Below the pieces are notes generated by a model. The model saw only the letters and a list, made by a program, of their open reading frames with translations, was not told the origin of the DNA and ran no database searches. From contig CM060854.1 in NCBI GenBank assembly GCA_030737835.1, positions 7,326,860 to 7,390,859 of the forward strand: a stretch of 64,000 nucleotides of DNA, given 5' to 3'. Positions 243 to 53,816 of the stretch are shown one piece after another (the stretch's first letter is position 1; every line of letters starts with the position of its first letter). This DNA comes from Acorus gramineus. Lineage: Eukaryota > Streptophyta > Magnoliopsida > Acorales > Acoraceae. The position numbers were made by a program, and so were the translations under genes.

Positions 243-259
243 AAATGATGTGGCTAAAC

Positions 260-7150: not shown

Positions 7151-7868
7151 TTAGTCCAGAAGGAACTATGACATTACCCCAACCTCCATAAACTCATTTG
7201 ATGCACATGATTGACTTTGAGCAGAGATTTTTTTTTTTTTAAGTTGAGCCGACATTTCCATATTATTATTATTATATTGTTTTCAGGTTTTAAAATGGGC
7301 AAGATCTAATCTAACAATATGTTCTAAACTTAGAAGTCGATCACAGATATGTGAATTATTTACGGTAGAAACTGTGGTTTTTTTTTTTTGTTTTTTTGAA
7401 TTATTATTTGAAGCATAAATATATCTAACAAATCTTAAGTCCAGTTTGAATCGGCGTCTAGGTGAATTCTGCGATGTAAACATTGAACGCAGATCCAAAC
7501 ACAGATCCAAACACAGCTTTCTCACATTTCCTGCATTTTATATTCAATAAAATGGCCGCATTACAAACTCCCCAGAAACAACGCTTTTAAAATGCAGGGC
7601 TACTTTTCTAGAAACTATTGTTTAAAATTCACATCCAAACAGAACTTTTAAAGTTCCCTTATTTTTCGAGTTCCTGTCCATATCCATAGTATCAATTGCA
7701 CATCCAAATTGACACCAACGGATCACGCAACTTGGAGAATTACAATTCCAATTTCACTCGATCCCTCAAATCCAACCCCATCATAAAAAAAAAAGTATTA
7801 TCAATATAATTTAACACAAAAAAAAAAAGTCCAAACACTTGCACCTCTTCTTCTTTCTCATAGAAGAT

Positions 7869-8352
7869 TAGGGCTGTAACTTGGACGGGTTGAATTCTGG
7901 TTGACCCCAACCCGAATTTCAAAGTACTCAACCCTAACCCGACTCAACTCGATTTCCAACCCGGATTGGACTAACCCGAATCCAACCCGAATTAAATAAA
8001 TTAACCCGACCCAACCCGAATTGGACTAACCCGACCCCAACCCAATTTGCAACCCGAATTGGACCAACTCGACCCAACTCGAATTTATAACATAATGTGC
8101 AAATTAAATAAATTAACCTGACTTAACTCATAAGATTAGCTAGGTTTACCTAAAATTTAGACTACCCATATTAAAATCTACAATATAAACGACCATGATC
8201 TTTTTTTTAATTATTAGTATACGGGTTCGGGTTGGATTGGATTATGAGTGAGGCCAATCCAAATCCGAATCCAATTTGATTAACTCAACTTATGTAAAAA
8301 TCAAATTCAACACGTCATATTCGAATTCAATCGGACCCAAATTGCATCCCTC
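7869..8352. mobile_element. Small hAT-like foldback element, unit 2 copy
   Basis: Positional equivalent of the element at 2623 in unit 1, opening TAGGGCTGTAACTTGGACGG and closing TTGCATCCCTC. Slightly shorter and more diverged at the right terminus. Confidence 0.6.
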
Positions 8353-9735
8353 CGGAACATGCCGATGGACTTTCAATCATTCATCAAAACAAAAGTAAAT
8401 AAGAATAAAGACTGCACATTTATAAAATGTGGTGAGAGAGAGAGAGAGGCCCACATGCCTGAGATTCCGCCGCAATTTCCCCCTCAAATCATATGGCCGC
8501 CATTTCATACAAAAATCTGAAGCTCTATACGTTGTCGGCAAGACTCGCAGGATATCTCAACAGAAATTTGTTTTTGGAACTTTAGATCTCACAAGGACAT
8601 ACAATGGGCTTATCATTAATGTAATCACACTAGGAATTTGTTGCAATAATTAACTGGTGACCATTTAAAGAAGAAGAGCACACGACATGGAGTTTTTTTT
8701 TAAAAAAAAAAAAGTTAAAAATATAAAATATAAATATAAGTTTCTATTAAAATTAGGATATAATTTAAAAAAAACTTATAAAAATTCAATTATCATTCTT
8801 TGTGAAAATTTTTATCGCAAATTTAATATAATATTATGAGAATATTATTACACCATGTAATTGTCCGTGTAGACATTACAATCTTTATAAATAATTAATT
8901 ATAAAGATAAATTAGTCTATGCAAAAGACTAAATTGCATTTTTAGAGTTTTTATGTTTTTTCATCTTTTACCTTGATATTGTTAGGAGGGGTTGAAAATT
9001 TTAAGATAGTTAATTTAGTCATTTCGTTGTATATGTTAAAATTAACTAGGATATGTTAAAGCATAGTTAAACTCTATTGACGACCTGGATGTACAAGGAT
9101 TTTTTTGAGGTTTTAAGAACTCATTAATTAATTTTGTTGTACCTTAATTGGGTTGATTGAATCTATCTATATTACTAATACAAAGACTTTTAAATTTCTT
9201 CCTTTATCACCCTAAAGATTCAAACCTCTAAAGCAACCTAACGAATTGAACTCAGGTTGCCTTTCAAGTTGGGTCGATCATCACCTAATGTAGCCCTTGT
9301 TTTTTCACATGCAGTTCTCCTTCTCTTTTTTATTTTTTAAAATATATTATACATCATCTAATGTGAAATATATTTTTATAAAAAATAAAATATCGTTCAT
9401 TTATAAAATGTGTAAAAAATTTAATAAGATATAAATATCTTATTAAAGTACGTGTAATGATTAACTAAATATATGATACTGTAAAATAAACTATGTTTTA
9501 ACAGCGCTGATTTTTTATTTTTTAATATGCTTCCGTTCTTCCAAGGTAGAGAAAGATGGATAAATTACAAATGCAGACAGACAAAAAAATAAGGATATTA
9601 AACCTTCATCTGGATCTAATCGCGCAGCTACATTTTGTATATACGTGTGGGTCCATTTCTCACGTTTCTAGAATTCATATATTTATCAATATTTTATAAA
9701 ATATAATTGTGAAAAAGTTGTGGTTCAATCTCTTA

Positions 9736-10168
9736 GCCCCGCTTGGAATGGAAATAAACCCCAGGATAATTTCGAATAAAGGAGAATAAAAGATAAATGA
9801 TGTTTGGAAATATAGAATAATCAGGGATAAAATATGTCAAAATAAACTGGTATATGGATTACAACCAACTTCTGGAATTAAAGTTATCTTAGGTTATTTC
9901 ATTCAAAGAATATGTGGGCCCACTGTCACATCAACTGTCATCACCTCTTATAAATCATATGTCAAATCAATTATCATTATTTTTTCATCTTTTATAAATC
10001 TTTATCCATACTTTATTCACATTTTACCCGAACAACAAAACATTTATTCTTACGTTTACCAACTAGAATAATTTAAAACACAACCAAACACAAAATCACT
10101 TTATCCTCACTTATACCGGAATAAAAGTATACCCAAGAATAAGTCATATTCCCGTTCCAAACGAGGGC
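9736..10168. mobile_element. 433-bp Harbinger-type MITE, unit 2
   Basis: Left end GCCCCGCTTGGAATGG and right end (reverse complement) GCCCTCGTTTGGAACGG, flanked by TTA (9733-9735, 10169-10171). A diverged independent copy lies at 33096-33525, so the family is dispersed. No coding capacity. Confidence 0.88.
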
Positions 10169-10171
10169 TTA

Positions 10172-10391
10172 GGTACCGTTTGATTACACGATTTGACAGC
10201 TTTTACGTTTGCAAGAAGCTACTTTTACAATCGTGCAACCAAACAATTTTACTGTAACAGTTTTCTGCAGATAAATATTATCCAAAAGCTGCGATTTTCA
10301 AAAGCTGAGAGGTAAGCTTCCCGCAGAATCAATTTTAAAACCTACATTCCTGCAGAATCAATTTTGCAATAGCACAACCAAACGCACCCCA
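10172..10391. mobile_element. 220-bp MITE with CCGTTTGATT-type ends, unit 2
   Basis: Directly abuts the 433-bp MITE. Left end GGTACCGTTTGATTACACGA; right end read in reverse GGGGTGCGTTTGGTTGTGCT. No clear target duplication. Unit 3 has the same element at 16179-16397. Likely Harbinger-type, judged only from the termini. Confidence 0.55.
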
Positions 10392-10394
10392 AAT

Positions 10395-10870
10395 TTCCAT
10401 TTGTACAGGGACATACTATTTTAAGATAAATACCTATTTCAGAGTAGATAAAGAATAAAATATTTTTCGATTGGTTGTGTTTTTAGTCATTTTCATTAGA
10501 AAATATTATAATAAAATTTTTGTTATATGATTGACTATGTATAAGTTATAGATAAGAAATTATATATAAAGAACAAAAATAAAAAAATAAAAAATGCAAT
10601 GAGGTCTCTTGACTTATAAGAGATAATACCATGTGATTTGGCATGTGGGCCCCCCTGTACCAATAGAATAAATTATATATGTAAATTAAAAATAATTTCA
10701 AGACATCTAAAATATCAAATCAGTTTATTTTCACATATTTTAATACAGTTATATACCAACTTATTCCTTGTTAAAAAACAATTTTTTAAAAAATAAAAAA
10801 TAATTTTTTAAACTTATTCATCTTTATTCCACTCTATGCTTCACCTATTCCGCCGTCCAAGCATGAAAAA
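10395..10870. repeat. Interspersed repeat of the 31.8-kb type, unit 2
   Basis: The stretch around 10450-10500 (GATTGGTTGTGTTTTTAG followed by CATTTTCATTAGAAAA) matches, with divergence, blocks at about 31840 and 28670, so it is a third member of that repeat family. Unit 3 carries it at about 16400-16880. The outer ends are uncertain. Confidence 0.4.
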
Positions 10871-11279
10871 ATCTCCTGGGGATTCTCCTTCTTTCGAGAA
10901 CATAAAGCACATGATGTGCACAACACGTGGAATTCCTGGGTGGAACATGGTGCAGAATGAACAAACAAATCTACCATACACTCTTTATCTTGTCTTATCA
11001 TGCATTGACTGTTACAACAATATTACAATATATATATATATATATATATATATTGATTTAAAACATTGTAGGCAACCAACTTTAATTAATTTACAACAAA
11101 ATTTAATTTTAAAAAAGTGATCGAATGTTTAAAAATCCAAGGATTACTTTTCACAGTGCTTGTATTAGTTACTCGTATATCAACAAAAGAGATTAATTAA
11201 ATATTTTTTATTTGTTAATCAATGCTAAATACATATCCAACAAAATCTCTTGTAATTGTGTGAAATGATGTGGCTAAAC

Positions 11280-12193
11280 TAGGCCTGTCAACGGGTTGGG
11301 TCCGGGTCGGGTTGGGGTGGACCCGGACCCGACCCGTGGTAAGATCCGGCGGGTCAGGGGAAATGTGGACCCGGACCCGTCTGACCCGGGTCGGGTCCGC
11401 CCCGACCAGGATGGTTGGAGTAAAAAAAAAAAAAAAAACAAGAAGAGCTCATGTATTTGTTTGTCTTATCATTCTATTTGAAATTTTTTTTGTAATAAAA
11501 CATTATTATTAATGAGACTATGTTTGAATATAATTTTATACAATTCAAAAGAAGTAAATGAATTATTAAACAACATCCAAAACAATAATCACTAACATAA
11601 AAAATATATTAACCTAAATAATAAACATAACTAATTATACAAACATTCAAAACAATATTAACTTAAACAACATTCAAAACAATAAACATTAACATATTAA
11701 TCTAAATAATAAACATAAATCATGTAACAAACTAATTAATCATACAAATTCAAAAGCTAATAAGTTGATTGTCCAAAACAAACCGACGACAATACATTAC
11801 TAAGTTTATTAAATATTAAACAATCAAGTTCTTGTAAGTTGCAACATCAACACAACAAAAAAAATGTTATGATTATGACTTATGATTTATGGGTTTATTA
11901 TGATTATGATTTATGAACTTGTGAATACAAAAATAAGTTAAGTAAGAAATAAAATTATGTATCAACTAATACTAATGGTCTTATAATATATAAGCATATT
12001 TTAATAAAACAATCGGGTCTCGGGTCCAACGGGTCGAGGCGGGGTGGACCCGGACCCAACCCATTTGTTTATTCAGGTCCGCTGAGTCGGGTCCAAATCG
12101 GGTTAGATCTAAATCGGATTGGGTATATTATATGTGTAATCAGATTCAGATCAGATCAGATCTGGGTCTGAAATCGACCCGTTGACAGGCCTA
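11280..12193. mobile_element. Non-autonomous hAT-like element, unit 3 copy
   Basis: 914 bp, same ends and same one-mismatch 8-bp flanks (11272-11279, 12194-12201) as the unit 2 copy. It was multiplied by the array duplication rather than by separate transposition, because all three copies share flanking sequence. Confidence 0.9.
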
Positions 12194-12607
12194 GGCTATA
12201 CCATTGCAGTAGCCTTTATGAGATGTGAAGTCACCCATGGCGTCATACATATGTTACTCATATCTGTGAGAACTATTCCAGTCTTGTGGGCCATAGTCTG
12301 TTTTAGATTTAAGTTGATCTTTGTCTACTTTAGTAGCCGTGGGTCATCATTATTTGGGATTGTTATCTAAAAAAAAAAAAATTGTATTATTATATTCAAT
12401 TATTTTTTCAATCTAAAATATGATTATATATACATGATTAGAAATTCAATAAAACATATATATCGTTAAACGAGAAATATATCTCATTAAATTCTTTTAC
12501 ATCAATTAAAATTAAATTTATTTAACTAAAAAAAAACGATATACACTTCTCACTTAATCATATATCTTGTTAAATAAAAAACATATATATTTTACATTTT
12601 AGATTAA

Positions 12608-12944
12608 CCGTTTAGAAACACAGATTGAAAAGTGGCTTTTGGAATAAAGCTGCTTTTTAAGATGATTTTAGACCTTGACTTTTTTAGAATGTTTTTTTTA
12701 ATTCAGGAATCAATATTTGAAAGGAGTTTAATGTTTGGCAGAGAAAGTTGCTTTTTAATTCAAAAAATCGATTCCGACAAAAAAACGTTGTTTTTTAGCT
12801 TTTTAAAACACAAATTTCGAGAAAAAAATTAAAAGGAATTCAGCTTACAATTATGTAAAAAGCTGTCATGTTTAACTGCACGATTTTAGCTTTTCAACTT
12901 TTCAAAAAATAAAAACACGCTCAAACGCACAACCAAACGGAGTC
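12608..12944. mobile_element. Harbinger/Tourist-type MITE, unit 3
   Basis: 337 bp, TAA-flanked, at the same site as 6284-6620 in unit 2; inherited through duplication. Confidence 0.85.
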
Positions 12945-13852
12945 TAAAAAGTATCAAGTCTAACATTTTCATATATATATATATATAATATATATTATAT
13001 ATATATCAATGATGGTCTACTTAACACATGTGACAAAACTATTAAAATCAACACCGACGTTTAGAAAACAAGCTATGCTCATGTTCATTTTCAACTAGGT
13101 TGCCCATGTGTTTTTCTTTCCTCCATTGATTTAGTCCAGAAGGAACTATGACATAACCCCAACCTCCATAAACTCATTTGATGCACATGATTGACTTTGA
13201 GCAGATTTTTTTTTTTTTTTTTTTTGAGCCGACATTTCCATATTTATTATTATTATTATATTGTTTTCAGGTTTTAAAATGGGCAAGATCTAATCTAACA
13301 ATATGTTCTAAACTTAGAAGTCGATCACAGATATGTGAATTATTTACGGTAGAAACTGTGGTTTTTTTTTTAGTTTTTTTGAATTATTATTTGAAGCATA
13401 AATATATCTAACAAATCTTAAGTCCAGTTTGAATCGGCGTCTAGGTGAATTTTGCGATGTAAACATTGAACGCAGATGCAAACACAGATCCAAACACAGC
13501 TTTCTCACATTTCCTGCATTTTATATTCAATAAAATGGCCGCATTACAAACTCCCCAGAAACAACGCTTTTAAAATGCAGGGCTACTTTTCTAAAAACTA
13601 TTGTTTAAAATTCACATCCAAACAAAACTTTTAAAGTTCCCTTATTTTTCGAGTTCCTGTCCATATCTATAGTATGAATTGCACATCCAAATTGACACCA
13701 ACGGATCACGCAACTTGGAGAATTACAATTCCAATTTCACTCGATCCCTCAAATCCAACCACATCATAAAAAAAAGGTATTATCAATATAATTTAACACA
13801 AAAAAAAAAAGTCCAAACACTTGCACCTCTTCTTCTCTTTCTCATAGAAGAT

Positions 13853-14352
13853 TAGGGCTGCAACTCTGACGGGTTGGGTTCATGTTGACTTCAATCTGAA
13901 TTCTAAACTACTCAACCATAATCCGATCCAACCCGATTTTCAATCCGAATTGGAATAATCCGAACCCAACCCGTAATTAAATAAACTAACCCAACCCAAC
14001 CCGACCGAACCCGAATTGGACTAACCCGACCCCAACCCGATTTTCAACCCGAATTGGACCAACTCGACCCAATTCGAATTTATAACATAATGTGCAAATT
14101 AAATAAATTAACCTGACTTAACTCATAAGATTAGCTAGGTTTACCTAAAATTTGAACTATCCATATTAAAATCTACAATATGAACAATCATGATCTTTTT
14201 TTTTAATGATTAGTATACAGGTTTGGATTGGATCGGGTTGTAAGTGAGACCAACCTAAACCCGAATCTGAACCGATTTGATCAACTCAACTTATGTAAAA
14301 ATCAAATTCAACACGTAATATTCGAATTCAATCAGACCCAAATTGCATCCCT
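13853..14352. mobile_element. Small hAT-like foldback element, unit 3 copy
   Basis: Positional equivalent of the copies at 2623 and 7869, opening TAGGGCTGCAACTCTGACGG. Flanks TAGAAGAT and CGGAAGAT match at 6 of 8 positions. Confidence 0.6.
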
Positions 14353-15742
14353 CCGGAAGATGCCGATGGACTTTCAATCATTCATCAAAACAAAAGTAAA
14401 TAAGAATAAAGACTGCACATTTATAAAATGTGGTGAGAGAGAGAGAGAGGCCCACATGCCTGAGATTCCGCCGCAATTTCCCCCTCAAATCATATGGCCG
14501 CCATTTCATACAAAAATCTGAAGCTCTATACGTTGTCGGCAAGACTCGAAGGATGTCTCAACAGAAATTTGTTTTTGGAACTTTAGATCTCACAAGGACA
14601 TACAATGGGCTTATCATTAATGTAATCACACTAGGAATTTGTTGCAATAATTAACTGGTGACCATTTAAAGAAGAAGAGCACACGACGACATGGAGTTTT
14701 TTTTTTTTTTTTTTGAAAAATTGAAAATATAAAATATAAATATAAATTTCTATTAAAATTAAAACACAGTTTTAAAAAAATTTATAAAAATTCAATTATC
14801 ATTCTTTATGAAAATTTTTATCGAAATTTAATATAATATTATGAGAATATTATTATACCATGTAATTGTACGTGTAGACATTACAATCTTTATAAATAAT
14901 TAATTATAAAAATAAATTAGTCTATGCAAAAGACTAAATTGCATTTTTAGAGTTTTTATGCTTTTTCATCTTTTACCTCGATATTGTTAGGAAGGGTTGA
15001 AAAATTTAAGATAGTTAATTTAGTCATTTCATTGTATGTGTTAGAATTAACCAGGATATGTTAAAGCATAGTTAAACTCTGTTGATGACGTGGATGTACA
15101 AGGATTTTTTTGAGGTTTTAAGAACTCATTAATTAATTTTGTGTACCTTAATTGGGTTGATTGAATCTATCTATATTACTAATACAAAGACTTTTAAATT
15201 TCTTCCTTTTTATCACCCTAAAGATTCAAACCTCTAAAGCAACCTAACGAATTGAACTCAGGTTGCCTTTCAAGTTGGGTCGATCATCACCTAATGTAGC
15301 CCTTGTTTTTTAACATGCAGTTCTCCTTCTCTTTTTTATTTTTTGAAATATATTATACATCATCTAATGTGAAATATACTTTTATAAAAAATAAAATATC
15401 GATTCATTTATAAAATGTGTAAAAAATTTAATAAGATATAAATATCTTATTAAAGTACGTGTAATGATTAACTAAATATATGATACTGTAAAATGAACTA
15501 CGTTTTAACAGCCCTGATTTTTTATTTTTTAATATGCTTCCATTCTTCCAAGGTAGAGAAAGATGGATAAATTACAACTGCAGACAGACAAAAAAATAAG
15601 GATATTAAACCTTCATCTGGATCTAATCGCGCAGCTACATTTTGTATATACGTGTGGGTCCATTTCTCACGTTTCTAGAATTCATATATTTATCAATATT
15701 TTATAAAATATAATTGTGAAAAAGTTGCGGTTCAATCTCTTA

Positions 15743-16175
15743 GCCCCGCATGGAATGGAAATAAGTCTCAGGATAATCTTGGATAAAAGAGAATAAAAGA
15801 TGAAGGACGTTTGAAAATATAGAATAATCAGGGATAAAATATATCAAAATAAACTGGTATATGGATTACAACCAACTCCTGGAATTAAAGTTATCCTAGG
15901 TTATTATATTCAAAGAATATGTGGGTCCACTGTCATATCAATTGTCATCACCTCTTATAAATCATATGTCAAATCAATTATCATTATTTTTTCATCTTTT
16001 ATAAATCTTTATCCATCCTTTATTCGCATTTTACCCGAACAACAAAACATTTATTCTTACGTTTACCAACTAGAATAATTTAAAATACAACCAAACACAA
16101 AATCACTGTATCATCACTTATACCGGAATAAAAGTATACCCAAGAATAAGTCATATTCCCGTTCCAAACGAGGGC
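15743..16175. mobile_element. 433-bp Harbinger-type MITE, unit 3
   Basis: Same site, length and TTA flanks (15740-15742, 16176-16178) as the unit 2 copy. Confidence 0.88.
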
Positions 16176-17267
16176 TTAGGTACCGTTTGATTACACGATT
16201 TGACAGCTTTTACGTTTGCAAGAAGCTACTTTTACAATCGTGCAACCAAACAATTTTACTGTAACAGTTTTCTGCAGATAAATATTATCCAAAAGCTGCA
16301 ATTTTTAAAAGTTGGGAGGTAAGCTTCCTGCAGAATCAGTTTTAAAACCCAGATTCCTACAGAATCAGTTTTGCAATAGCACAACCAAACGCACCCCAAA
16401 TTTCCATTTGTACAGGGACATACTATTTTAAGATAAATACCTATTTCAGAGTAGATAAAGAATAAAATATTTTTCGATTGGTTGTGTTTTTAGTCATTTT
16501 CATTAGAAAATATTATAATAAAATTTTTGTTATATGATTGATTATGTATAAGTTATAGATAAGAAATTATATATAAAGAACAAAAATAAAAAAATAAAAA
16601 ATGCAATGAGGTCTCTTGACTTATAAGAGATAATACCATGTGATTTGGCATGTGGGCCCCCCTGTACCAATAGAATAAATTATATATGTAAATTAAAAAT
16701 AATTTCAAGACATCTAAAATATCAAATCAGTTTATTTTCACATATTTTAATACAGTTATATACCAACTTATTCCTTGTTAAAAAACAATTTTTTAAAAAA
16801 TAAAAAATAATTTTTTAAACTTATTCATCTTTATTCCACTCTATGCTTCACCTATTCCGCCGTCCAAGCATGAAAAAATCTCCTGGGGATTCTCCTTCTT
16901 TCGAGAACATAAAGCACATGATGTGCACAACACGTGGAATTCCTGGGTGGAACATGGTGCAGAATGAACAAACAAATCTACCATACACTCTTTATCTTGT
17001 CTTATCATGCATTGACTGTTACAACAATATTACAATATATATATATATATATTTATTGATTTAAAACATTGTAGGCAACCAACTTTAATTAATTTACAAC
17101 AAAATTTAATTTTAAAAAAGTGATCGAATGTTTAAAAATCCAAGGATTACTTTTCACAGTGCTTGTATTAGTTACTCGTATATCAACAAAAGAGATTAAT
17201 TAAATATTTTTTATTTGTTAATCAATGCTAAATACATATCCAACAAAATCTCTTGTAATTGTGTGAA

Positions 17268-17610
17268 AACAATCAATTTTTTTTTTATCATTATTACCGA
17301 CCGTAATGACTTATATACAGATATATATGTCCCATGTGCCATGTCCATTGCCTAGGCAGGCTTGTCATCAACCAATTGAGGACCCCAATCCTTCATTACC
17401 AATCAAACAGTCACACAATTATCACGTTTCTTTTTATCAATTCACACCCCACCCCAAAAATACATCCCCCCCTCTCAACTCTCAATGCCCCACCAATTCT
17501 CAGTTGTCTTCTTCATGTTCCGGTCAGTCATACATGTTATATATGTGTGTGTGTGTATATATAGAGAAGGGAGAGGATGAGTTACTATGACTGCAATTAC
17601 TTCTTCTTGA
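17268..17610 (+). promoter_or_regulatory. Proximal promoter and 5' leader of the dioxygenase
   Basis: Unique sequence between the end of the tandem array and the start codon. A (TG)n run at about 17543-17555 runs into TATATATA at about 17555-17563, a plausible TATA box some 50 bp upstream of the ATG. No exact CACGTG G-box was seen, although jasmonate-responsive genes of this family often carry one. Any further control element would have to lie inside the repeat array. Confidence 0.5.
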
Positions 17611-20600
17611 ATGGATTGCCTGAAAGACTGGCCGGAGCCTGTCATATCGGTCGAGACCCTGACTGGCCTCCTGACGATCCCGGAGAGGTACATCAAGCCC
17701 CCCTCACAAAGACCCAACATCACCACCACCTCCTCCAACCTAAACATCCCAACCATCGATCTCGCCGCCCTCCGACAAGGCCTAGACGACCATGAAGCCA
17801 TGGAAGGCATCCGAAAGGCGTGCCGAGAGTGGGGGTTCTTCATCCTAGTGAACCATGGGGTGGAGCCTGAGCTGATGAGGGCCATGAGAGGTGTGTGGAG
17901 GAGGTTCTTCTACCTCCCCCTCAAAGACAAGAAGAGGTACGCCAACTCTCCGGCCACCTACGAGGGGTTTGGGAGCCGCCTTGGGGTCGAAAAAGGCGCC
18001 ATCCTTGATTGGGGGGACTACTTCTTCCTCCACATCCTCCCCCCTTGCATGAAGAACCATGAGAAGTGGCCTGCTCTCCCCACCTCCTGCAGGTGTGTGT
18101 GCTAAATTTTATTCACTTAAAAGACAATTCATTTTTTTTTTTTCCTTTTTTGGTAGGCCCCCTTGTGCTTGCAATTAGCGAACTAATAGTTGGCCAGTTA
18201 GACCTTATATTCGTACTTCCTGTCTCCCTCGTACTATCCTTCACATGCATTTCATGTTTCATGTGTTTGTTGGAATAATACTACTCCATTCATATACGTG
18301 GACTCTCGTTTTTCTAATAGAAGACTGACTTCATGACTGATCAATCCTGATTGGAGCTTTAGATATGTCTTTAATTTGAAATTGTTGGGTGCAGGGAGAT
18401 CACAGAAGAGTACAGCAAAGAACTAATAAAGCTGTGTGGATTCTTGATGAAGGTGTTTTCAAGGAATCTAGGGTTGGGGGAGGAGAGGTTGCAAGAAGCA
18501 TTTGGAGGGGAGGAGGTGGGAGTGTGCCTTAGGGTGAATTACTACCCTAAGTGCCCACAACCTGACCTAACCTTAGGTTTGTCACCTCACTCGGACCCCG
18601 GCGGCCTAACCCTCCTCCACGTCGATGACCACGTCGAAGGCCTCCAGGTCCTTAAGGACAGCGAGTGGATCACCGTTAAACCGGCACCAGATTCCTTCAT
18701 CGTCAACATCGCCGACCAATTACAGGTCACACACACATATATATTTCTCTTTCTCTCTCTCTCTCTCTCACACACACACTCTTTTAACTGTGTTTCTGTT
18801 GGATATTATATCTCTATAACACACATGGTTGGGACTGTTAAAGAGTCATCAGACAATTTTTGTTTCTCTTTTATGGACCCACCTTTAATGGGTGTGGATG
18901 AATGAACAATTCAATTGATGGACTACTACACCAAATTAAAGTTTGTGGAGGAGGAGGAGAAGAAGAGGCAAATGTCTTGATTTGTGTTTTTCTTTTGGAT
19001 CCATTAGAGGTGTCTTAGGCCTACATATTAAATTTGGGTTCTTTCTTCTAGATTATACAAGTCTTCCCTACCAACCAACTTTTCATAATTTTCCTTATAT
19101 GGAAAGATAGTGTTCTTGTTGGTTACAAATTCAAACATAAATCTAACAGTGTACTCTCTTTTTTTTCAAGATCGGTGTTCCCTGAGCCGACTTATCAAAA
19201 ACACGTTTTTACTTTAGGTTCATTATTCATGTCGAGAATTGTTTTTTAGGATATAAATATATTTTATGGAGTGTAAACTTATAAAAATGTTTTGGAGTGT
19301 ATAAGTTATATTTTTCTCAACTTTGGTTATTTAAAAAAAAAAATGGAATTAACAGGGAATTGTCATATATGGAAAATTAAATTTTATTTTAAAAAAAACC
19401 ATTTCCAGTGGATGAAATTGGATGAACTGGGAAAATGAAATTGTGGCAAAGAAATATAAGACATGACCAGAATTTTCCTAGAAAAATATAAGCAATTTTT
19501 GAAGTGGAAAAGAAAAAATCCTTTAATTTTCATTTCAGGAACTTAAATGGCCATTTAAAAATGCCATTTCTAACTTGCAATCATTTATTTTTAGGGATTT
19601 TTATTTTTAAGCCCCCATAAACCATAGGATTTAGTGATCGGTCTCTTATTTCTTCATATTTTGGTTTTAGTTCCCAGATTTAAAAGATATGTTCCTTTTT
19701 AGTCCTTAGAAGGGACCTATTCCTAAATTATTTGGTTTTGTTTTTAGTCCTTGGGAGGGACTAAAAAGGAAACATTTCCTTTAAATCTCATAACTAAAAC
19801 TAAAATAAAAAGAGGTGAGAGATCGATCTCTAAATAGATATGTTTATAGGGGCTATAAATTAAAAAACCTTTATTTTTATTCTTTTTTATAAAATAAGAA
19901 TTTAATTTCTTTTCATAGTATCCATATTTATGTTTTTCTTCAGGAATTATTTTCCATATGTTTTGCAACCTATTTAATTCATCTGAACTAAAAATAATGA
20001 TGTTAAACTTTTTCCATTAAACGTTTCTTCAATATATATCAATAAGTGGAAAATTAAAAAAAAAGCAACCTAATGTTAGGAAAGGCTGACTTCCTATCAT
20101 CACAATATATATAATTCTTATCTTATGTTGATCTTGTAAGTTATAATAGGTGCCCTGAAAATTTCAAACCCCACGTGTTTTTTAGGGGAATCTATATATT
20201 ATTGATATATAATTCATCATTGATGGGATGACATTGGAATAGTCTCTGTTGGTGCACCAATTGGCAATTAAGATAAGGTTGGACAAAAACTTGAGTACGT
20301 GGTTTTTTTTTTTTTTTCTTCTTTTTGTGCACTAGTTTTATAGGGCCATTTTAAACAAATGGATAGGAACAGAGTCCAATAGTACACCAACAGAACCCAA
20401 TTCAAAGATTATGATCACTTTTTTTTTTTCACCAGTACTGCCATCTTTTCTAAATTCTTCTCGTGGCTATTATGCTTTCCTGCACTATATACAACACAAA
20501 GCACATCAATTCCAGATTCTTCAGCATTGAGTCATTAATTATCCCCCAATATACTATATCAGGGTTTATCATTTATTTCAAAAAATAGCGTGATAGTAAT

Positions 20601-25575: not shown

Positions 25576-25608
25576 CAGTGGCGCGGAGCCACGTTGGGGG
25601 GGGGGGGT

Positions 25609-25675
<67 letters not shown>

Positions 25676-26658: not shown

Positions 26659-28028
26659 TGTTAGAAATAAGAGAGAGAAAATAATAATGAAACCCTAAAA
26701 CCCTTGTACTTGTTCTATCAGAGAGGGACTAAAACCCTTTATATAATAGTACAAAATAGTGTTACACATGTAACACACTAACAAACTAATATAATAACAA
26801 ACAAATATAATAACAAACTGATATATAATCTAACACATTTAACACCCTCTTCCAAACTCTGAAAGGTAGTACCCTTAAAGTTTACACAAATATGATAAAC
26901 TAAAATCCCAACAAAAATAAGTATTATTAGACTAAAATCATTAAAATATCCTAATACTTATTTAACATCCCTCCCAAACTCTGAAGGGTACTTTTGAGTT
27001 GCGGTCTATGTTTTGGAATATCACTTCGCTCCCGCTCTTCTTGACTCGGAGTCGCTCCCGCTTCTTGATTCAGTCGGAGTCGCTCCCGCTCTTCTTGAGT
27101 CAATCGGAGTCGCTCCCGCTCGTTGAGTCAGTCGGAGTCGCTCCCGCTCTTCTTGAGTTAATCAGAGTCGCTCCCGCTCGTTGAGTCAATCGGAGTTGCT
27201 CCCGCTCGTTGAGTCAGTCGAAGTCGCTCCCGCTCTTCTTGAGTCATCCGGAGTCGCTCTTGTTTGTTGAGTCAGTCAAAGTGTTGGTGGATGGAGATGA
27301 CTGTGCGCGAATAGACGACGGCGATAGTGGTTCTCAAGGAAGAAGGAGATCCAAGGATGAGAGGAGTCGTCCGTGGTTCTGCGCCTGCGGTTGACGATGC
27401 TCGTGTGTCGAGTCGTGGAGGAGGAGGAGATCTACGATGAAATCTAGAAAACGAAGAATGGTTGTTGGTGGAGTCAAAAGTCCTCCTCCATCTGTCACAT
27501 CCGCGATTGGTGAATGATCCCATAAATACCAAATTAATCCTCTCTGGACAAAGAGGGAATCAATCAAATTTGATGAACATCACCATAGGACAAGAAATAG
27601 GATTTTTTTTTTTTTTTCGATCGTTCTCTTCCCTTCGATCTGAAGAAGAAATAATGGGACGAGAATATCCATCTTGCGTCGAGGATCGCCTCCAAGGAGG
27701 CCGGGCCGAGATGACAAAGGCGATAGTACCACGAGATGACAAAGACTAGAATGCAAATAGATATGGTTACTAACAGTCCTCCCTCGCTCCGATTGAAGAC
27801 ATCTCAATCGGAGCGGAAAAGAGAAAAGAAAAATTTTATATATTTAGGATTTATGAGGTGGCTCTGATACCATGTTAGAAATAAGAGAGAAAAAATAATA
27901 ATGAAACTCTAAAACCCTTGTACTTGTTCTATTAAAGAGGGGGACTAAAGCCCTTTATATAATAGTACAAGATAGTGTTACACGTATAACACACTAACAA
28001 ACTGATATATAATTTAACACATTTAACA
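26659..28028 (-). mobile_element. TRIM-type non-autonomous LTR retrotransposon
   Basis: 1370 bp, read on the minus strand. LTRs at 27873-28028 (5') and 26659-26844 (3') start TG and end CA. The primer-binding site next to the 5' LTR reads TGGTATCAGAGCC (27860-27872), complementary to initiator methionine tRNA as in many copia-like and TRIM elements. A purine-rich tract borders the 3' LTR (about 26845-26856). The 5-bp target duplication GTGTA is perfect (26654-26658, 28029-28033). There is no gag or pol; structurally it looks whole for a non-autonomous element. The similar LTRs suggest moderate age. Confidence 0.9.
27015..27290. repeat. Minisatellite inside the TRIM element
   Basis: About eight imperfect copies of a roughly 30-bp unit built on GAGTCGCTCCCGCTC and TTGAGTCAGTCG. 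Much richer in GC than the surroundings. Encodes no recognised protein. Confidence 0.8.
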
Positions 28029-34972: not shown

Positions 34973-37900
34973 TCACTGCCTGCTTTTCTTCATACTGCAA
35001 TTAGGGCATTTGTACTGCTTTATGCTCTCAGCTTTCGCTGGTGTAATCTTAACACACTTCCCATGGAACCACCTTTCACATATGTCGCAACCAATCCAAA
35101 ACTCTTCGGCGCTGTAACTGCCTCCGCAAGTCCCACAGAGGGTGTCACTGTGCTCATCCTCATCTTCTCCGTATCCCTCGTCTACGTGCTTTGAATTGCT
35201 TTTCACCTGTCCATCGCTTGATCGCTATGGAGAGAAACGCAGAATATTATTAGATGCAAAGTTTAAAGAGAAACATTAGATGAAAGACTTTTTTTTCAAA
35301 ATAATCTCTCACCTTTGTTGACACTTTTGATTTACTTCCAATGTCCATCACGGGCTTGTCTTTCATGGGAGTCTTTCGTGTGACTACTTCATAAACAGTA
35401 GGCAGTTCATTAATCATGCCAAACAGGCGCTTCCTGTAGAGTGGAAAATGTGATATCTAACATGAAATCTCAATAAACAACTTGCAATTCCAACAATAGT
35501 AGTTAGAGAAGCAGCAGATTGGTTGATCAATCATGAATACATATATGATCACATTGATAAGCAGCAGTCCTAATTTTCCCTCGCTTTTTTCTTCTTCTTT
35601 TTTTCTTTTTTCTTTTTTTTTTCCCTTTCTTTCTCTGTGTTTTTTTTTTTTTGTTAAAAAAAGGTGGGACGTCCATCCAATTTCCAATATAACAGGGGAG
35701 AGAACCCAACACACAAAAACAATGCACAAAACACCACTCCTTTACAACAAGATAACAAAGATTTCATTCCCCTCCCTGGCTACAAGCCTACAACCATAGT
35801 TTAAAGTGCGGCCGCACGTACTTCGCCATGTGCGCCCTCGGGCGCACTTGGAACCCATGTGCGACGCACATGCCTTCAATGTGCGGCATGTGCGCCGCAC
35901 ATGCGGCAAAATGGCCGCATATGCGCCATGTGCGCCGCACATGGCGCCAACGGCTAGTTTCCAACTAGCCGTTGGAATTTTTTTTTGGGTGTTTTTTGAG
36001 GGTCCCCACTATAAAATAGGTTCCATTTGAATCCCAAATGCACCTAAAACAATTACAACATCTCTCCAAACTCTCAATTCTCAAAACTCTCAAATTCTCT
36101 AAACTCTCAAATTTTTCCAATACTCTCAATCCTCAAAACTCTTGATGTTCTTTCAAATTTTCCACTTCAACTTGTTATTCTAGTGTGTGATTCATTTAGT
36201 TTATTATTGTAGGGGTTGTTGAAAAAGGCTTAAAAGAATCTTGAAGGCATTTGGAGGAGACTCTTGAGGAGTTCATCATTTGTTTGCATCTTCTTATCTC
36301 AATCTCTTGTGTTTTTCTTTTTTCACTAGTCACTAGACTCTCTACACTGGTGGTTTAGCTTGGTTTAGAATGCATTTGATTAGGATGCCCAATTCAAATG
36401 CTCGTCAATGTGTGAATGCCACCACTGAAATTAAAAAAGAAATTCGTGATTATTATAATACCCAATCTAAGGCTTCTAGAGTTACTGCTAGGTACCAAGA
36501 TCCCTACTTAAGACCAAATACCGAAGAAGAGGATGAAGATGATGTTGTTCCCCTTGAATCAAACCCCGGCCCTAGTTCTCGCCCCGATCCATCCCAACCC
36601 AAAAAAAGAATACGTGATCGTTCTAGGGGACCTCTTGATAGAATGTTTTCTAGAGGTAGTGAAGCTAGGAATCCATCTCAAACCCAATCATCCATAGAGA
36701 GCCACTTCAAAAAGGATGAGATGAATGAGACTTATCGTAGCATTGCACAATTTTTCTATCACGCTGGAATTGCTTTCAATGCTGCTGCTACAGCCCCATT
36801 CAAGAAAATGATAAAGAGGATAGGTGATTTTGGCCGAGATCTCAAACCACCCACCCCATACCAATTGGCCGGACCTTTGTTGGATAGTGAAGTAGAGGCA
36901 ACAAGGGAATTGGAACAACAATATAGGAAGAGTTGTAAATTATATGGGTGTAGTATCATGGCTGATGGTTGGACTGCACGGGATGGTCGGAAATTCATTA
37001 ACTTTCTGGCTAATTGTCCCACCGGCACATTATTTATCAAATCTATTGATGCTTCATCACACTCACAAATAGCCACTTACTTTTATAATCAATTGATCAA
37101 TGTCATTGCACAAGTAGGTCCGGAGCACGTTGTCCAAGTTGTCACGGACAACGCCGCTTCTTTCATTTCTGCGGGTGAGCTCCTCCAACAAAGGTGGCCT
37201 CACCTATTTTGGACACCTTGTGCCGCACATTGCATTAATTTGATGATTAAAGAAATTTGCAAAGAACACATGTCCACCATAGCTAAAGCACGTAGGATTT
37301 GTGTACTCATGTATAAACACTCACAACTTCTTCATCTCATAAGGGAGAAGTTAAAAGGAAATCTTGTAAGGGCGGAAGTCACTCGATTTGCCACCCATGT
37401 CCTATGTGTACAAAGCCTCTATTTTCATAGACAAGCTTTGAGACAATTAGTCGTTTCTTCCGAATGGAACAATGGACATTGGGCAAAGGGTAGGGAGGCA
37501 AAGAAGGTGGTAAGGATAATCCTTGAAGATAACTTTTGGAAGAGTGTCCAACAAATAATGAAGTTCACAACACCATTAGTACAAGTATTTGAGGATGGTG
37601 GATGGGGATGAAAAACCCTCACTTCCATATGTTTGGCATGCGATGGAAAATGCAAAAGCCAAGATTAAAGAGAATTTTAACTATAGGGAAAGAGATTATA
37701 GGACCGTTATCTCTATTATTGATAGGAGATGGGAACATCAAATGAGAAGTTCCCTTTATCATGCCGCTTATTATCTTAATCCCTGTTTATTTTATGGTGT
37801 TGACAGGAATGAAGTGGACAACACCCATTTCCGGGGATTCTTGGATGTATTGGAGAAGATGGTCCCAGACGTCGCCACACAAGATGTCATAAGCATTCAA

Positions 37901-40900
37901 CTAAACCAGTACCGGGACGCGGTAGGCGTGTTCGGGAGGGACATTGCAAGAAGACAGCGAGCTACGATTAAGCCAACCTAATGGTGGTCCTACTTTGGGG
38001 TAGATGTACCTGAGTTGAAGATGTTGGCAATGAAGATTCTAAGCCTCACGTCTTCAGCTTTCGCATGCGAACGATGTTGGAGTACCTTTGAGCAGCTTCA
38101 CACGAAGAAGAGTAACCGTCTAAAACAGAAGAGGTTGAATGATTTGGTGTACGTCATGTACAACCAAAAACTGAAAGAGCGTTTCTCAAAATTGCATGAG
38201 AAGCCCGGATTCTATGATCCAATCAGCACAACTGTTGAAGATGATGAAGAGTGGATCACGGATGCCGGAGAGGAAAGAGTTTTTGATGATGAGGGAGAAA
38301 GCTTGACAAGGAATGAAGTCGAGCGACAAGCCTTTGGAGATGATCCGGATGGCTCGCCACCAACAAGAACATATGTTCGTAGAGGAAGCGGAAGTGGATC
38401 AACGATAAGAAGATCAACACAAGAGGAAGCGGCCGCGGAAGAAAATGTGCAAGAGGAAGATGAAGAAGTTCCAGTGCAAGCCAATGTCACTGGAGAACTG
38501 CCCGGAGTCTACATCGACGAGGACGATCAGAACGAGAATGAAACAGATTTTCCCCAATGGGTGCGAGAGGGAAATGTTGAGTTTGCCTCCTCTTTACTAG
38601 GATATTATTATCAGTGATGTAATTCAATGCTTTTTATGTAACTGAAAGAAGTTATTATATATTTTCTTCATGGGAAATGTAGAATTTTATGATCTTTAAA
38701 GATTTTTATGATCTTCAAATAAACGTTAGGAATTTGCTCTAGCCCTAGAAAAAAGCCCCAGAAAATACCGTTCGATTACCGTTTGAACCTTGTTCGAACG
38801 ACAAGGGAACGTTTGAAGCACGTTCGAACGTGAATTCGAACGAGCAGTTACGGTTTGAACACCGTTCGAACGGTATTCGAACGTCAGAACCCCGCTCTGA
38901 CTTCGAATTACCGTTCGAACAACGCTTCGAACATCAAGGGAACGTTTGAACAGCGTGCGAACGTGACTTCAAACGAGCAGTACCCGTTCGAACCCCGTTC
39001 AAACGGTCTTTGAACGTCAGAACCTCGCTCTGACTTCGAATTACCGTTCGAACAACGCTTCGAACGTCAAGGGAACGTTTGAACAGAGTGCGAACGTGAA
39101 CGTGACTTCGAACGATCATGACCCGTTCGAGCCCCGTTCGAACGGTATTCGAACGTCAGAACCCCGCTCTGACTTCGAATTACCGTTCGAACAACGCTTC
39201 GAACGGTCCAGGATCGTTTGAATAGAGTTCGAACGTTTATTCGAACGATCAGATACCGTTCGAACATTACTTCGAACGGTCTCTTAAAGTTCGAAGACCG
39301 TTCGAACGTTCTTCGAATGGTAAGAGCACGTTCGATTACCATTCGAACGGTTAGTTTGAAAATTCAAAAAACAGCCACTATTCAGTGGCCGTTTACAACC
39401 CTATCAATTCATAAACTATTCAAACAACCCTATCAATTCAAACAAATTATTCGAACAATTCATTAACAAACAATTCATATACCATAATTCATAAACCACT
39501 ATTCATAAACCATACAAGAGAGATAACACATAGTTTCATAACAAAAAGAAAACTAGTTTCATAACAACCAAAAACATATTTTCATTGTCCGGGCCCAGGA
39601 TGCTCTTCTTGACCATCATCACGAGGAGCAGAGAACGTTGGCAAGCTTCCCGTCATCATTGAATTGTAACCGGGCATGACAAGTCCCAAAGCACGCCGGA
39701 CTTCAGATAATCCGTCATCAACATGATCGAACCGGGAGTTCATGTTAGCTTCGAACGTGTCCATGCGGCTTTCAATTTTATTGAACCGCATGTCAATGGT
39801 AGAGTCCAAGGAATCAAATCGCTCACACAATAGAGAATACATCTCGCCGGTGGACATTTCATGATCCGGCATTGTCATGTCATCATCACCGAATGGCATC
39901 GTCGGGTTATTGGTAGCTTGTGTGGAAGCGGCCGCAGCAGATGTTGATGCACCGGCACCCAATTTCTTCCTTAATTGCCCCTCGCTCCTCTTCACAGTAG
40001 AGTCATCGATTGGAGATTTGGAGTATGATTTGGGTTCATTTGGGGCGATTTCAATCCCAATAGATTTGATCATGTTACTAATGAACACACTGAAAGGAAG
40101 AGAGTCCGTGGATGATTGGGAAAGGGATGCTTCAGTGATGACATCAAAAATGATGTTAGGAAGATCAATCGGGGCGCTCGTTCCAATCATGTAAAGAAGC
40201 TTTGCTCTGTCTTCAGTAACATCGCTCTTATGCCCCATAGGAACGATATTATGAGAAATAATGGTATTTAAGAGGCGGTAGATAGGTTTGAGAAGAGATT
40301 GTTGAATGACGGTATGGTATTCTAGTCCCGTTACGCATATCTTTTCAGATATGGTGGTTTTCATTGCAGATAATTTCCTATAATCTATAGCATTAGGCAC
40401 ACGAGGAAGTGTAAGTTGATCAGCAATGGTTTGGGTGGAAATGGTAAAATATTTTCCATTCAAATAAGTCCTGAAAGTGCGATTATGAGGAAGTATATCA
40501 TGAATGTTGGCATAGAACAAATGCACATAATGAGGGTAGGCTACACTACCAAGTGAGGCAATGTCCATCCAACCACGGGATTCAAATATGGTCCATATGT
40601 TGTGATATGATGGTATATCCCTGAATTTTTCTAAGATAATTTCGCGCTCAAGGATCAAAGAGCGTTTACAAAATAGTTTTTCAAAGGCCTTCTTCGCCTT
40701 ACGTTCATAGAAAATATTGGCATCGGACGAAGAAAAAGTTTCCCTAGCGCGTTTAGGCAATTTCTTATTTACCATCACGAAAACAAATGTAAGAAAAAGT
40801 TTGGTGGTATTGTGATTTTTGGACCTAGGGTTAGAGGTTGGGAGATGATTGAGGTTGGGACCTAGGGTTAGAGGTAGGGAGATGAGAAATATCCTAGAAT

Positions 40901-43900
40901 TCAAAAAAAGGAATGATTGAGGTTGCAAAACAAAAGAATATACAACAATAAACATCATTCATCATTTACATTCAAAGATTAAACAAAAAAATTAAAAAAA
41001 TTTGATAATGGAGATGAAAAAGAGTAGAAGCATACCTTAAATAGTGTTTAGAAGGATTTGGGAGGATTTGGGAGAGGGATTTGATGGGAAAAATAGGGTT
41101 TGGAAGGATTTGGGGGCTTTGGGTTTAAATAGGGTTCGAATGGGAAAAATAGAGAGAGGGAATGAGAGGTTTCGGGCTGAACCTGATTTAAAAGGCCCGA
41201 GGCCGTTCAAACTCCAGTTTGAATGGTCTGTGCATTTTTTGTTTAAAAAAAAAAATAGGAAGGCGTTCGAACAGCCGTTCGAACGCCTTCCTAAACCTAA
41301 GTGCGGCCGCATGTACTGTACATGCGGCCGCATATGCTATGTGCGGACCCCACCGCACATGCGGTCCGCACACAGTTTGAAACTATGCCTACAACATACA
41401 TAAGGGTACATTTCATCATTTATAAAAAAATGACATGTCCCAATGCTACATAGCTCAATATTATTGCCCCAGAAAATGTATTTTCCCCTTTGTCTTTAAG
41501 AAACAAAAAATATATTCTCAAGGATTTTCACATCACATGCTTCTCTGTTAAGAACCCTCCCCATTACTCAGCAAAAATCTCAATCATTCTGCATGAAGGA
41601 TCATTTGACTGAAGTACCCCTTCCTGTTGCCCATTATATTGTAAGTGAAAAAATTCCCACATCCGCCGAAAGGGTATTAGGAGCTAGGTGTTCCAGTTAT
41701 ATATGATATGGGGGCAAGTAGGCAACCATTTAGACTATAGAACCATTGTTTCTCCATGTTTAGAGGTTTAAGGATAAAGATTAGTGTCAGCTGTATTCCT
41801 GATGGTATGAATTCAATTTACTTGTGTAGCTGGTCTCTAGGAAAACACTGAAAGATGATAAGAAATTAATGTTGTTATTGTATGTACCCAAATGTGCCTA
41901 ATTGTTAAGGCAGTGGATAGAATATTGAATTTTGTAGGTTAACACTATCTTGTGTATCTCTAACCATGTGCTCTTCATTTCCCTATTCTCTGCCACTTTG
42001 TCTTCTTCCTCCTATTGGCTTTCAAAAAACATCTTACTTTCCCTTTTGTCAGACTTTTTCATCCAATGCTTTTCCTCTACATAATACTCTCAGGCTTTCT
42101 TCACTTTCATCCTTGAGAAGTCCAAAAAATTGAGAGTTGCCCAACTGTGTGTCACCAGCAATATCAACATAGCACTCTGGCAAGTGGACTGGACCAGCAT
42201 TATACCATAGTATCCCTGATCATTTTCGTATAGTTTCATGTAAAATTCCCATCCCTGATCATTTTCATACTTTTATCTCTGATAGAAACTTGTACAGAAC
42301 TTCTGCTCAATTCACTTGAGATTTTTTTGCCATCTGAAGACGATTGATCCACATATTCCCCATATTTTACCTCAGCATGACTCATATCTGTCTCCTTGGT
42401 TTATCTCCTTTGAGTCCTACTGAGTCCACTGATCGGTCCCATAATACATTCATGTCTGACAATTAACTTTCCTAGTTTTATACATCACCTACTTTGACTT
42501 TATTTCATAAAAATAATAATAATAATAATAATAATACAAACCCTGACAACCTTAACTTAAACCAGCCTTGGTGCTTCCTATACAGATTTTTCACTTTCAG
42601 CTGCAATGATTCAATCACACAACATACCAAATGCACAAACCTTCAAATCATCCAACAAGTTTTAGATCCTATTGAAAATATCATCCATCTCACCACTTAT
42701 TTTATATTGGGTACTGCTTGCATTTCAGAGAAAATTGTTAATTCTGCCTAAACTTCATTCCCTCTGAAGCCTTTATTCCATATAGTTCTCAATCTCCCTC
42801 TAGGTTCTATTCCATACAGTCGATCTTAGTGTCTAAATCTTACCACATATTCCAATTGGTGCATATCCATTTTTTTGGCATTTAAATCCCTTGCCCCATC
42901 CCCCAAAATCAGCACATAGCAGGATAAATCACTGGTAGATGAATATTACATTCAATACATCAGTTCTACCTCCCTGCATTCTTTTTCCTCTTTTATTTTT
43001 TATTTTTTATTTTTTTAAGAGAGAGAGAGGAGAAAATTTATTAGAAAATGCCCCTGAACAAGGAAGGAGATGAGGGATCTCCGTACAAAATTTAGTTAAA
43101 TAGAAATAAAAAAGGAAAACGAAGGGGAAAGAAACCCTTCAAGCATCGCCTCTGATTCGTCACCTCCCGAACCTATGGTTTCCCATAATTGATGATGATG
43201 GAAATAGCAACTCATGTGTTCTCCAATTAAAATCTCTTTATTGGAATACACGTTCATTATGAGTGAGCCAAATACTTCAACATACTTGAGAAACTGCATC
43301 CCTGCATTCTTAAATCACTTTAACCAACAAACAAGGGGTTTAAAGACAGATTGACAAGGAATGAAGGCCTGTCTCAAAAAAAAAAAAATTACGTTGAAAA
43401 TATTTGGACGGCCATTATGGGGCTACTTTGAGTTTGGGTATATGTTCATATTGGAGAGAGCTTCATCTACTCCAATATAAGGACTAAGTGGAAAGGGTCA
43501 TGGATGTAATCAACTGACCTCTTTTTTTACCTTTTCCTCAGCTCTCTGTGTTTTGTTTTTATTTTCGCTTTTGTCTCACAGATTTCTTTTTTCAGAGATC
43601 CATTGTTTCCATTTTGTTCGAGGAGTGACATTTTCTTAATAGAAAGCTTCAATCTTAATTCTCCAAAAAGACAGATTGGCGTGAAGCAAGTAAATTCATG
43701 AAAATAAAGATAATTCACAAATACAGAACTGTTCCCATGGAAAAATACCCCCCTCCAAATGCGAGGATCCATGGCTCAATAACAGATTTTCTAGGGAAGC
43801 ACACTCCAAAACCTCTGATCTGGAGCAAGTCATGTTGGAGGAACACCGGTTTGGTATTTATATCAGACCAGCATATTTTTTAATTCAACATATTATGCTT

Positions 43901-50567: not shown

Positions 50568-50838
50568 GGATTTTTAGTTTTAAGTCCCTGCAAACCATCA
50601 TATTTAGTGATCGATCCCTCCCTTCTTCGTATTTAGGTTTTAGTCCCCCGATTTAAAGGATAATTCATGGATAGGTCCCTCACAGGGACTAAAAGTAAAT
50701 TAAATAATTTATGGATAGTCCCTCTCAGGGATTAAAAATGAACTATCATTTAAATCTAGAGAATAAAACCTAAATACAAAAAAGGGAGGGATCGATCACC
50801 AAATATGATGGTTTGTGGGGACTTAAAACTAAAAATCC
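50568..50838. mobile_element. Mutator-like foldback MITE, intergenic
   Basis: 271 bp, ends GGATTTTTAGTTTTAAGTCC and its near-perfect complement; arms of about 130 bp. Flanked by T-runs on both sides, so the 9-bp duplication cannot be read precisely. Same family as 19594-19870 and 53573-53816. Confidence 0.8.
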
Positions 50839-51149
50839 TTTTTTTTTTTTATCTTACTGGTCATCTGCAAACTGTAACATCAAATTTTATTAATAATTTG
50901 CTTGAATCTTTTCAAAAAAATTTATTTTCTATCTTAGCTTGTATTTCAAACTCTCGAGCGAGTAATATATATGATCGGGTTATAAATTATCTATCGTCTC
51001 TCAAATAAAAAACACTTACAAACATTTAAAAACATTTGTTTATGTTGATTAAGATAATCTTTAACAATATAATTAGATTATTCTATTTATCAAGAATCTA
51101 ATAAAAAGTATGGGATGACGAGATAGAGGTAGCTGCAACGACCATAGAA

Positions 51150-53060: not shown

Positions 53061-53572
53061 TAAACATTTGTAATTGGTTTCAATATGTATATTTTCGTTG
53101 TGTAGGACCAAAGAAAATATAAAAACCGAAAGAGATATGGAGATATAGTGCTAGGTGTTCTTAAAAACAATAATGGTGTTTTAAAAATGAAATTAACTAT
53201 GATTATGTATGTATAAATAATTCATTTGGAATGAATTAAAAAACAAAACAAGAAACATAAATTATATATGAAAATAATTCATTGTCACCGTCATTAATTC
53301 TGTATAGATAGAAGAGAGAGTAATTATAACTGTTTATTTGATTATAAAAATAATTACCAAATAAAGAAAAAAACAACAAAAAAAAGATAAAACATGTATT
53401 ACGCATAGCTTACTTGGGGCCATGTGAATCATTTTCCTAAAAAATATCATGTACAGTCTCATTTTACATTCTAATTTGAATCCATGTGTGTTTATATAAA
53501 AAATAACTTAAATTATCCAGTGATTTAAATGTTATAATAATATATTATATACTATATATATATATATTAAAA

Positions 53573-53816
53573 GGGAATTTTACTTTTAAGTCCCTACAAA
53601 TCATCATATTTAGTGATCGATCCCTCCCTTCTTCATATTTAGGTTTTAGTCCCCATATTTAAATGATAGTTCCTTTTTAGTCCCTGAGAGGGACTATCCA
53701 TAAATTATTTAATTTACTTTTTAGTCCCTGTGAGGGACCTATCCATGAATTATCCTTTAAATTGGGGGACTAAAACCTAAATACGAAAAAGGGAGGGATC
53801 GATTACTAAATATGAT
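53573..53816. mobile_element. Mutator-like foldback MITE, right end missing
   Basis: Starts GGGAATTTTACTTTTAAGTC and follows the 50568-50838 copy closely, but stops after CTAAATATGATAATA, without the closing GGTTTGTGGGGACTTAAA arm. A truncated family member. Confidence 0.75.

Follow-up and report, generated by a model that had tools for sequence, protein, structure and literature searches.

The hAT element and its two genes

The window analysed here is a stretch of 64,000 nucleotides from the Acorus gramineus genome (contig CM060854.1, positions 7,326,860 to 7,390,859), and contains a hAT transposon of 5,593 bp (positions 35795-41387 of the window) in which a plus-strand transposase gene converges with a minus-strand accessory gene of 397 codons (Table 1). 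An earlier note, made from the sequence of the window, had claimed a bounded hAT element at this place, and this was borne out. The element is flanked by an 8-bp target-site duplication (TSD), CCTACAAC, and ends in the short terminal inverted repeats (TIRs) CATAGTTT and AAACTATG, as in the hAT superfamily. The transposase matched both the DUF659 profile PF04937 (168.7 bits against a cut-off of 34.7) and the dimerisation profile PF05699 (Dimer_Tnp_hAT, 28.3 bits against a cut-off of 21.4). The subterminal repeat AAGTGCGGCCGCACGTACT is likely to be a motif on the transposase side.

Table 1. Features of the hAT element and its flanks (window coordinates; E, expectation value).
Feature	Position	Strand	Remarks
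Left TSD CCTACAAC	35787-35794		8 bp
Left TIR CATAGTTT	35795-35802	+	Also delimits 10 elements from 9 of the 20 fetched regions (at most 1 mismatch)
Subterminal AAGTGCGGCCGCACGTACT	35804-35822	+	Repeat family; near-identical copy at opposite end
Transposase piece 1 (hAT DUF659 region)	36370-37611	+	PF04937, E 9e-50
Transposase piece 2, in a different frame	37589-37981	+	Frame reading; in-frame stop at its end
Transposase piece 3, hAT C-terminal dimerisation region	38015-38617	+	PF05699, E 1.5e-6
Intergenic array of CGTTCGAACG-type sites (genes convergent)	38760-39351		Tandem period ~133-139 bp
Accessory gene, PF20167 Transposase_32	39582-40775	-	Intact, 397 codons; profile match, purifying selection
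Small second cluster of the CGTTCGAACG-type motif	41204-41295		Some sites degenerate; 5' of accessory gene, by right end
Right subterminal copies, GTGCGGCCGCA motif	41299-41338	+	Repeat family common to both ends
Right TIR, AAACTATG on the plus strand	41380-41387	-	Partner of CATAGTTT
Right TSD CCTACAAC	41388-41395		8 bp

The transposase of the window copy is broken, as had also been noted, by a frameshift near 37590-37611 and an in-frame stop at 37979-37981. In addition, ~148 bp near 36346 are absent from this copy but present in all seven other two-gene copies compared (see below). The missing segment contains the start of the transposase frame (ATG in six of the seven copies, ATA in the copy in region L039) and the first half of a finger-like segment seen in the other seven, which by eye looks BED-finger-like.

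The accessory gene, by contrast, is open throughout with no internal stop. Its product matched the PF20167 (Transposase_32) profile over positions 2-175 of 177 (97.3 bits against a cut-off of 45, E 1.2e-27), in agreement with the 'putative plant transposon protein' domain named earlier. As for the coiled coil that had also been ascribed to this protein, the sequence pattern and one predicted long helix (residues 308-373 of a single-sequence AlphaFold2 model of 396 residues, first Met omitted) speak for it, but the model itself is poor, with a mean predicted local distance difference test score (pLDDT) of 39.7. The C-terminal coiled coil would probably make the protein a dimer or higher multimer. 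The accessory protein had no confirmed homologues in IMG/VR contigs or GTDB genomes, and a literature search for PF20167, Transposase_32 and 'putative plant transposon protein' found no tested role.

Recurrence of the gene pair

One genome, the 398.6 Mb in 137 contigs from which the window is drawn, was searched. The accessory protein gave at least 107 matches in it, and 9 kb was fetched around 20 of these places (regions named L0xx). Ten elements with CATAGTTT-type ends (at most one mismatch) and a perfect 8-bp duplication were found in nine of the 20 regions, while the remaining 11 held no bounded pair inside the fetched stretch. Both genes are carried by seven of the ten elements, some of them internally deleted, which with the window element makes eight two-gene copies. 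The duplications around the seven are GTGCAGTG, TGTAATAC, GTTTCAGC, CTGGGCAC, ATTGAGAT and, at two separate places, GTTCGAAG. Two further elements are deletion derivatives of 2,467 and 2,160 bp, and the last, of ~0.5 kb, is the host of the insertion in L034. Right ends are of two types, CATAGTTTCAAACT and CATAGTTCAAAAAT, each found with both genes. Thus, the recurrence of the pair with changing flanks, for which the earlier note had suggested a search, was found in seven further copies, each with its own perfect TSD. Given this recurrence and the purifying selection on the accessory gene described below, the hAT element belongs to a true two-gene family.

The copies in L034 (1577-6693) and L046 (1706-7596) are both inserted at GTTCGAAG in what appear to be other members of the family. 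The former sits within the motif array of a short CATAGTTT element with the outer duplication GTTCTCTG, and the latter within the apparent end of another member. It is possible that the two-gene elements favour their own sequence as an insertion target.

A search with the hAT transposase gave 107 matches, and 58 places were checked, 21 of them with at least 75% identity. An accessory match lies within 9 kb of 15 of these 21 close places and of none of the other 37. Family members lacking the second gene, which the earlier note had held would speak against a two-gene family, therefore do exist, as the six remaining close places, though in one of these (C61:1481876-1486155) the two ends are just 4.3 kb apart and it looks like a deletion derivative. 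In another (C5:16473126), the transposase frame is open over 822 codons. All six share 79-91% identity with the transposase piece of the window, much like the accessory-bearing places, which makes loss of the accessory gene the simpler reading. Among the hAT places checked, those of lower identity (mostly 36-44%) likewise lacked the gene, which was therefore probably acquired within the present hAT lineage.

Selection on the two genes

Ratios of nonsynonymous to synonymous divergence (dN/dS) were calculated codon-wise by the Nei-Gojobori method for pairs with at least 60 codons, and the summaries cover those with dS above 0.03. In the 12 comparisons of the accessory gene with the window copy at dS of at least 0.3, dN/dS was 0.23-0.47. 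Among all accessory pairs, the median was 0.55-0.58 overall below dS 0.2 (0.55 at dS 0.03-0.10; 23 pairs, range 0.23-1.62), 0.40 at dS 0.20-0.35 (88 pairs) and 0.33 at dS 0.35-0.60 (46 pairs, range 0.23-0.67). The ratio for the last transposase piece drops likewise, to 0.25 at dS 0.35-0.60 (15 pairs), and that for the first piece stays at 0.43-0.56 (0.43 at dS 0.35-0.60, four pairs). The accessory gene is therefore under purifying selection and, since many copies are dead, the constraint is read as acting on those lineages that continued moving.

Relative to the window, the copies in L035 and L040 have a dS of 0.15-0.16 in transposase piece 1 and of 0.35-0.61 in the last piece and the accessory gene, a pattern that suggests recombination between subfamilies.

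A second carrier of the accessory gene

The PF20167 profile gave 57 matches in the genome and, as judged by eye, each overlapped a place that the accessory protein query had already given. Outside the hAT group, 23 distant PF20167 places remain, the main matches being 33-47% identical to the window gene. In L052 (C7:3206900-3210900), the distant accessory gene adjoins not a hAT transposase but one in two pieces that match the DDE_Tnp_4 profile PF13359 (29.5 and 41 bits, cut-off 24.8), a domain that we take as the mark of PIF/Harbinger transposases. An open reading frame (ORF) of at least 142 amino acids upstream, open at the edge of the region, had no Pfam match at E 0.1 when a Myb/SANT-like ORF1 was sought.

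With the first piece of the L052 transposase as query, 172 matches were obtained and 49 places checked. A Harbinger-type transposase lies 2.4-3.2 kb, start to start, from 12 of the 23 distant accessory places, and at 12-16 kb from three more. The genes are convergent in all 12 close pairs, the same layout as in the hAT element. All eight distant places with stop-free matched pieces have a Harbinger-type transposase close by, whereas the places without such a partner all contain stops and are decayed. Counted from the transposase, the accessory gene is present at each of the eight Harbinger places of at least 96% identity and, of the 20 with at least 76%, within 9 kb at 12 and at ~12 kb at two. 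Below 76% (29 places), it was found nowhere within 9 kb and once at 13.6 kb.

A palindromic motif shared by the two carriers

The array between the two genes of the hAT element (38760-39351) and its counterpart in the Harbinger-type copy (L052:2920-3665) were analysed separately, the first as a sample of seven (the window and six copies, L034 being left out) and the second as a single array. Against dinucleotide shuffles, the top enriched 8-mer was CGTTCGAA in all seven hAT arrays and in the Harbinger array, and CCGTTCGAAC ranked first or second among 10-mers in all eight. Each of the eight TTCGAA sites in L052 is the full palindrome CGTTCGAACG. Each of the seven hAT copies has 27-45 TTCGAA sites in its middle region and 3-4 in the last 700 bp, which is 5' of the accessory gene, with 0-2 sites between those regions and none in the first 2,600 bp. 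Upstream of the distant accessory gene on contig C7, motif sites flank a TATA-like CTATAAAAG on either side. Thus, in both carriers (one copy in the case of Harbinger) the palindrome is clustered between the convergent genes and recurs 5' of the accessory gene.

The extended word CCGTTCGAACGG has 165 sites in the genome, compared with 7 for the reversed word and 22 for a palindrome of equal composition that likewise has three CpGs. Positions were taken for the first 50 of the 165 sites, all on contigs C1 and C2, and 33 of these have an accessory homologue no more than 2.5 kb away, where 0.06 would be expected from the length covered. Among the sites listed, all eight clusters (at least two sites within 1 kb) are downstream of an accessory gene, three by hAT-group genes and five by distant-group genes. 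As the arrays turn over fast and the proteins of the two carriers are ~42% identical, the shared motif points to a constraint beyond common descent.

The sharing of gene and motif by two transposon superfamilies is therefore well supported, and we consider it very probable that the two form a portable cassette common to hAT and Harbinger-type elements. The alternatives offered in the earlier note, a second mobility factor or a captured passenger, are in this light too narrow.

The motif clusters on both sides of the accessory gene raised the possibility of a nested insertion bounded by the array, which was set aside. An alignment with L032 (element positions 551-5593) runs unbroken through the accessory block, with no base-by-base duplication search made, and the clusters consist of many short sites, not a single terminal repeat.

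Possible role of the cassette

In the proposed mechanism, the PF20167 protein, as a dimer or higher multimer formed via its C-terminal coiled coil, would bind the palindrome CGTTCGAACG in the array and also at its own promoter. The bound protein would then prevent silencing of the element, or turn its genes on, in the manner of VANC in the VANDAL elements of Arabidopsis. There, VANC21 binds the motif YAGTATTAY, which is tandemly repeated in non-coding parts of VANDAL21, and the protein brings about a loss of methylation (PMC5735166, PMC10398659). That the PF20167 protein acts on the motif appears likely from the co-location of gene and sites. Anti-silencing or activation as the outcome of that action is put forward more tentatively, by analogy, at somewhat short of an even chance. 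Taken whole, a motif-binding PF20167 protein that counters silencing or activates genes through a site array, as VANC does, is the best explanation that we can offer, and one that might equally prove right or wrong. It is conceivable, though we would lean slightly against it, that the cassette moved as a unit between hAT and PIF/Harbinger elements, freeing from silencing both its carrier and, in trans, derivatives that bear the array. PF20167 would in that case represent a family of sequence-specific transposon regulators, perhaps with Athila retrotransposons included.

Several observations weigh against this proposal. The layout of the motif in Harbinger-type elements was read in L052 alone, that of the others being deduced from motif positions. 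Site positions cover 50 of the 165 CCGTTCGAACGG sites, and 17 of these 50 lack an accessory homologue within 2.5 kb. For eight of the 23 distant accessory places, none of the 49 Harbinger places checked lies within 20 kb. No accessory match is in reach at six of the 20 Harbinger places of at least 76% identity, nor within 9 kb of the six close hAT places described above, so that the gene in cis is not needed by every copy of either carrier. Some close accessory pairs have a high dN/dS, up to 1.62 at dS 0.03-0.10, as is expected of dead copies. The AlphaFold2 model is too poor to reveal a DNA-binding fold, and no PDB chain matched the window accessory protein by sequence at E 1.

Foremost among the rival explanations is a transposition co-factor, which would attach to sites within the element and assist the transposase in joining the two ends. 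TnpA of Spm/En is such a co-factor, and the Myb-like ORF1 of PIF/Harbinger would be another model. The retention of the accessory gene alongside the transposase under comparable constraint would fit this role, as would the motif sites close to one end. However, the left end is without a site in all seven copies counted (no TTCGAA in the first 2,600 bp), and a different motif, GTGCGGCCGCA, is common to both ends. These two observations weaken the co-factor, and a motif-free first 2.6 kb is more in keeping with regulation than with end-binding. One protein family and motif would, moreover, have to serve two kinds of transposase, and we regard a co-factor as unlikely.

The sites 5' of the accessory gene in both carriers, placed around a TATA-like box in the Harbinger copy that was read, would also suit a protein that regulates only itself, binding its own promoter while the array acts as a dose-setting sink and silencing is unaffected. 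Such an autoregulator gives no reason why transposons should keep and share the gene, although this is an argument only, and we judge it slightly less probable than the co-factor.

Sequence capture is frequent among plant transposons, and copies without the gene exist, so that gene and array might be a captured passenger spread by hitch-hiking. The dN/dS of 0.23-0.47 in the 12 comparisons at dS of at least 0.3, and the identical convergent layout and motif in two superfamilies, make this very improbable. Least probable of all is that the array serves host factors as an insulator or a boundary of the TFIIIC type, with the gene a separate matter: the Harbinger array does contain six matches, in tandem copies, to the tRNA B-box pattern GGTTCGANNCC, which also count against the regulatory proposal in that this array may have additional roles, but the seven hAT arrays contain none, for which reason the B-box reading of the motif was rejected there, and the motif clusters among the sites listed go with the accessory gene.

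With a motif-binding regulator as the preferred reading, PF20167, annotated merely as 'putative plant transposon protein', gains a testable role from its co-occurrence with the palindrome in two superfamilies. If the reading is true, plants own a VANC counterpart able to cross between superfamilies along with its binding sites, and plant chromatin could be altered with a sequence-specific tool.

Other features of the window

A large tandem repetition with a unit of ~5-6.3 kb in ~3 copies occupies positions 243-17268 (for example, 7151-11265 and 13131-17268 are 95.5% identical) and stops shortly before the ORFs at 17611-18905, which by eye presumably resemble a 2OG-oxygenase. The window also includes a run of ~79 G at 25596-25674, a GC-rich 28-bp tandem repeat at 27026-27282, and an inverted pair of ~247 bp (50597-50843 and 53569-53816; 92% identical, 2.7 kb apart).

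Comparison with known systems

The single-gene hAT element Ac has an 8-bp TSD, short TIRs, a BED finger, a dimerisation region and subterminal repeats. The element described here resembles it in the TSD, the short TIRs, the dimerisation region and the subterminal repeats, and differs in that Ac-type elements are not known to have a second conserved gene. Two-gene PIF/Harbinger elements are DNA transposons that likewise encode a further protein, one that binds DNA and whose role is unclear; their second ORF is Myb/SANT-like (PMC4482050), and the PF20167 gene is distinct from it. A Transposase_32 (PF20167) ORF related to Athila ORF1 (PF03078) is known from a sunflower Athila retrotransposon, where the same Pfam domain is likewise an extra ORF of a mobile element, although the carrier there is a Ty3/gypsy retrotransposon and the accessible portion of that paper mentions no motif array (PMC11728184). 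This likeness suggests that the PF20167 gene may have its origin in Athila-type ORFs. A pairing of gene and motif was not reported in the accessible portions of the literature searched on PF20167, accessory genes of hAT and Harbinger elements, anti-silencing, and TTCGAA with transposons (including PMC12844716).

The closest parallel is VANC of the Arabidopsis VANDAL elements, in which a transposon also encodes an extra protein and a short motif lies in non-coding tandem repeats (PMC5735166, PMC10398659, PMC13317346). The VANDAL carriers are, however, Mutator-like elements (MULEs), whereas those here are hAT and Harbinger-type, and the protein here is of the PF20167 family with a CpG-rich palindrome as its candidate motif. 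Transposon-encoded accessory regulators as such are thus already known, and the function proposed here would follow by analogy with VANC.

In fungi, TET/JBP dioxygenase genes are carried by hAT, Harbinger and other superfamilies via transfer between them (PMC12730594). These, too, are one accessory gene family across superfamilies that is thought to counter silencing, but they encode a known type of enzyme and the excerpt mentions no motif array, in contrast to the PF20167 protein and its accompanying DNA motif in the present plant system (PMC12730594). The fungal case nevertheless provides a precedent for accessory genes crossing from one superfamily to another, hAT and Harbinger included.

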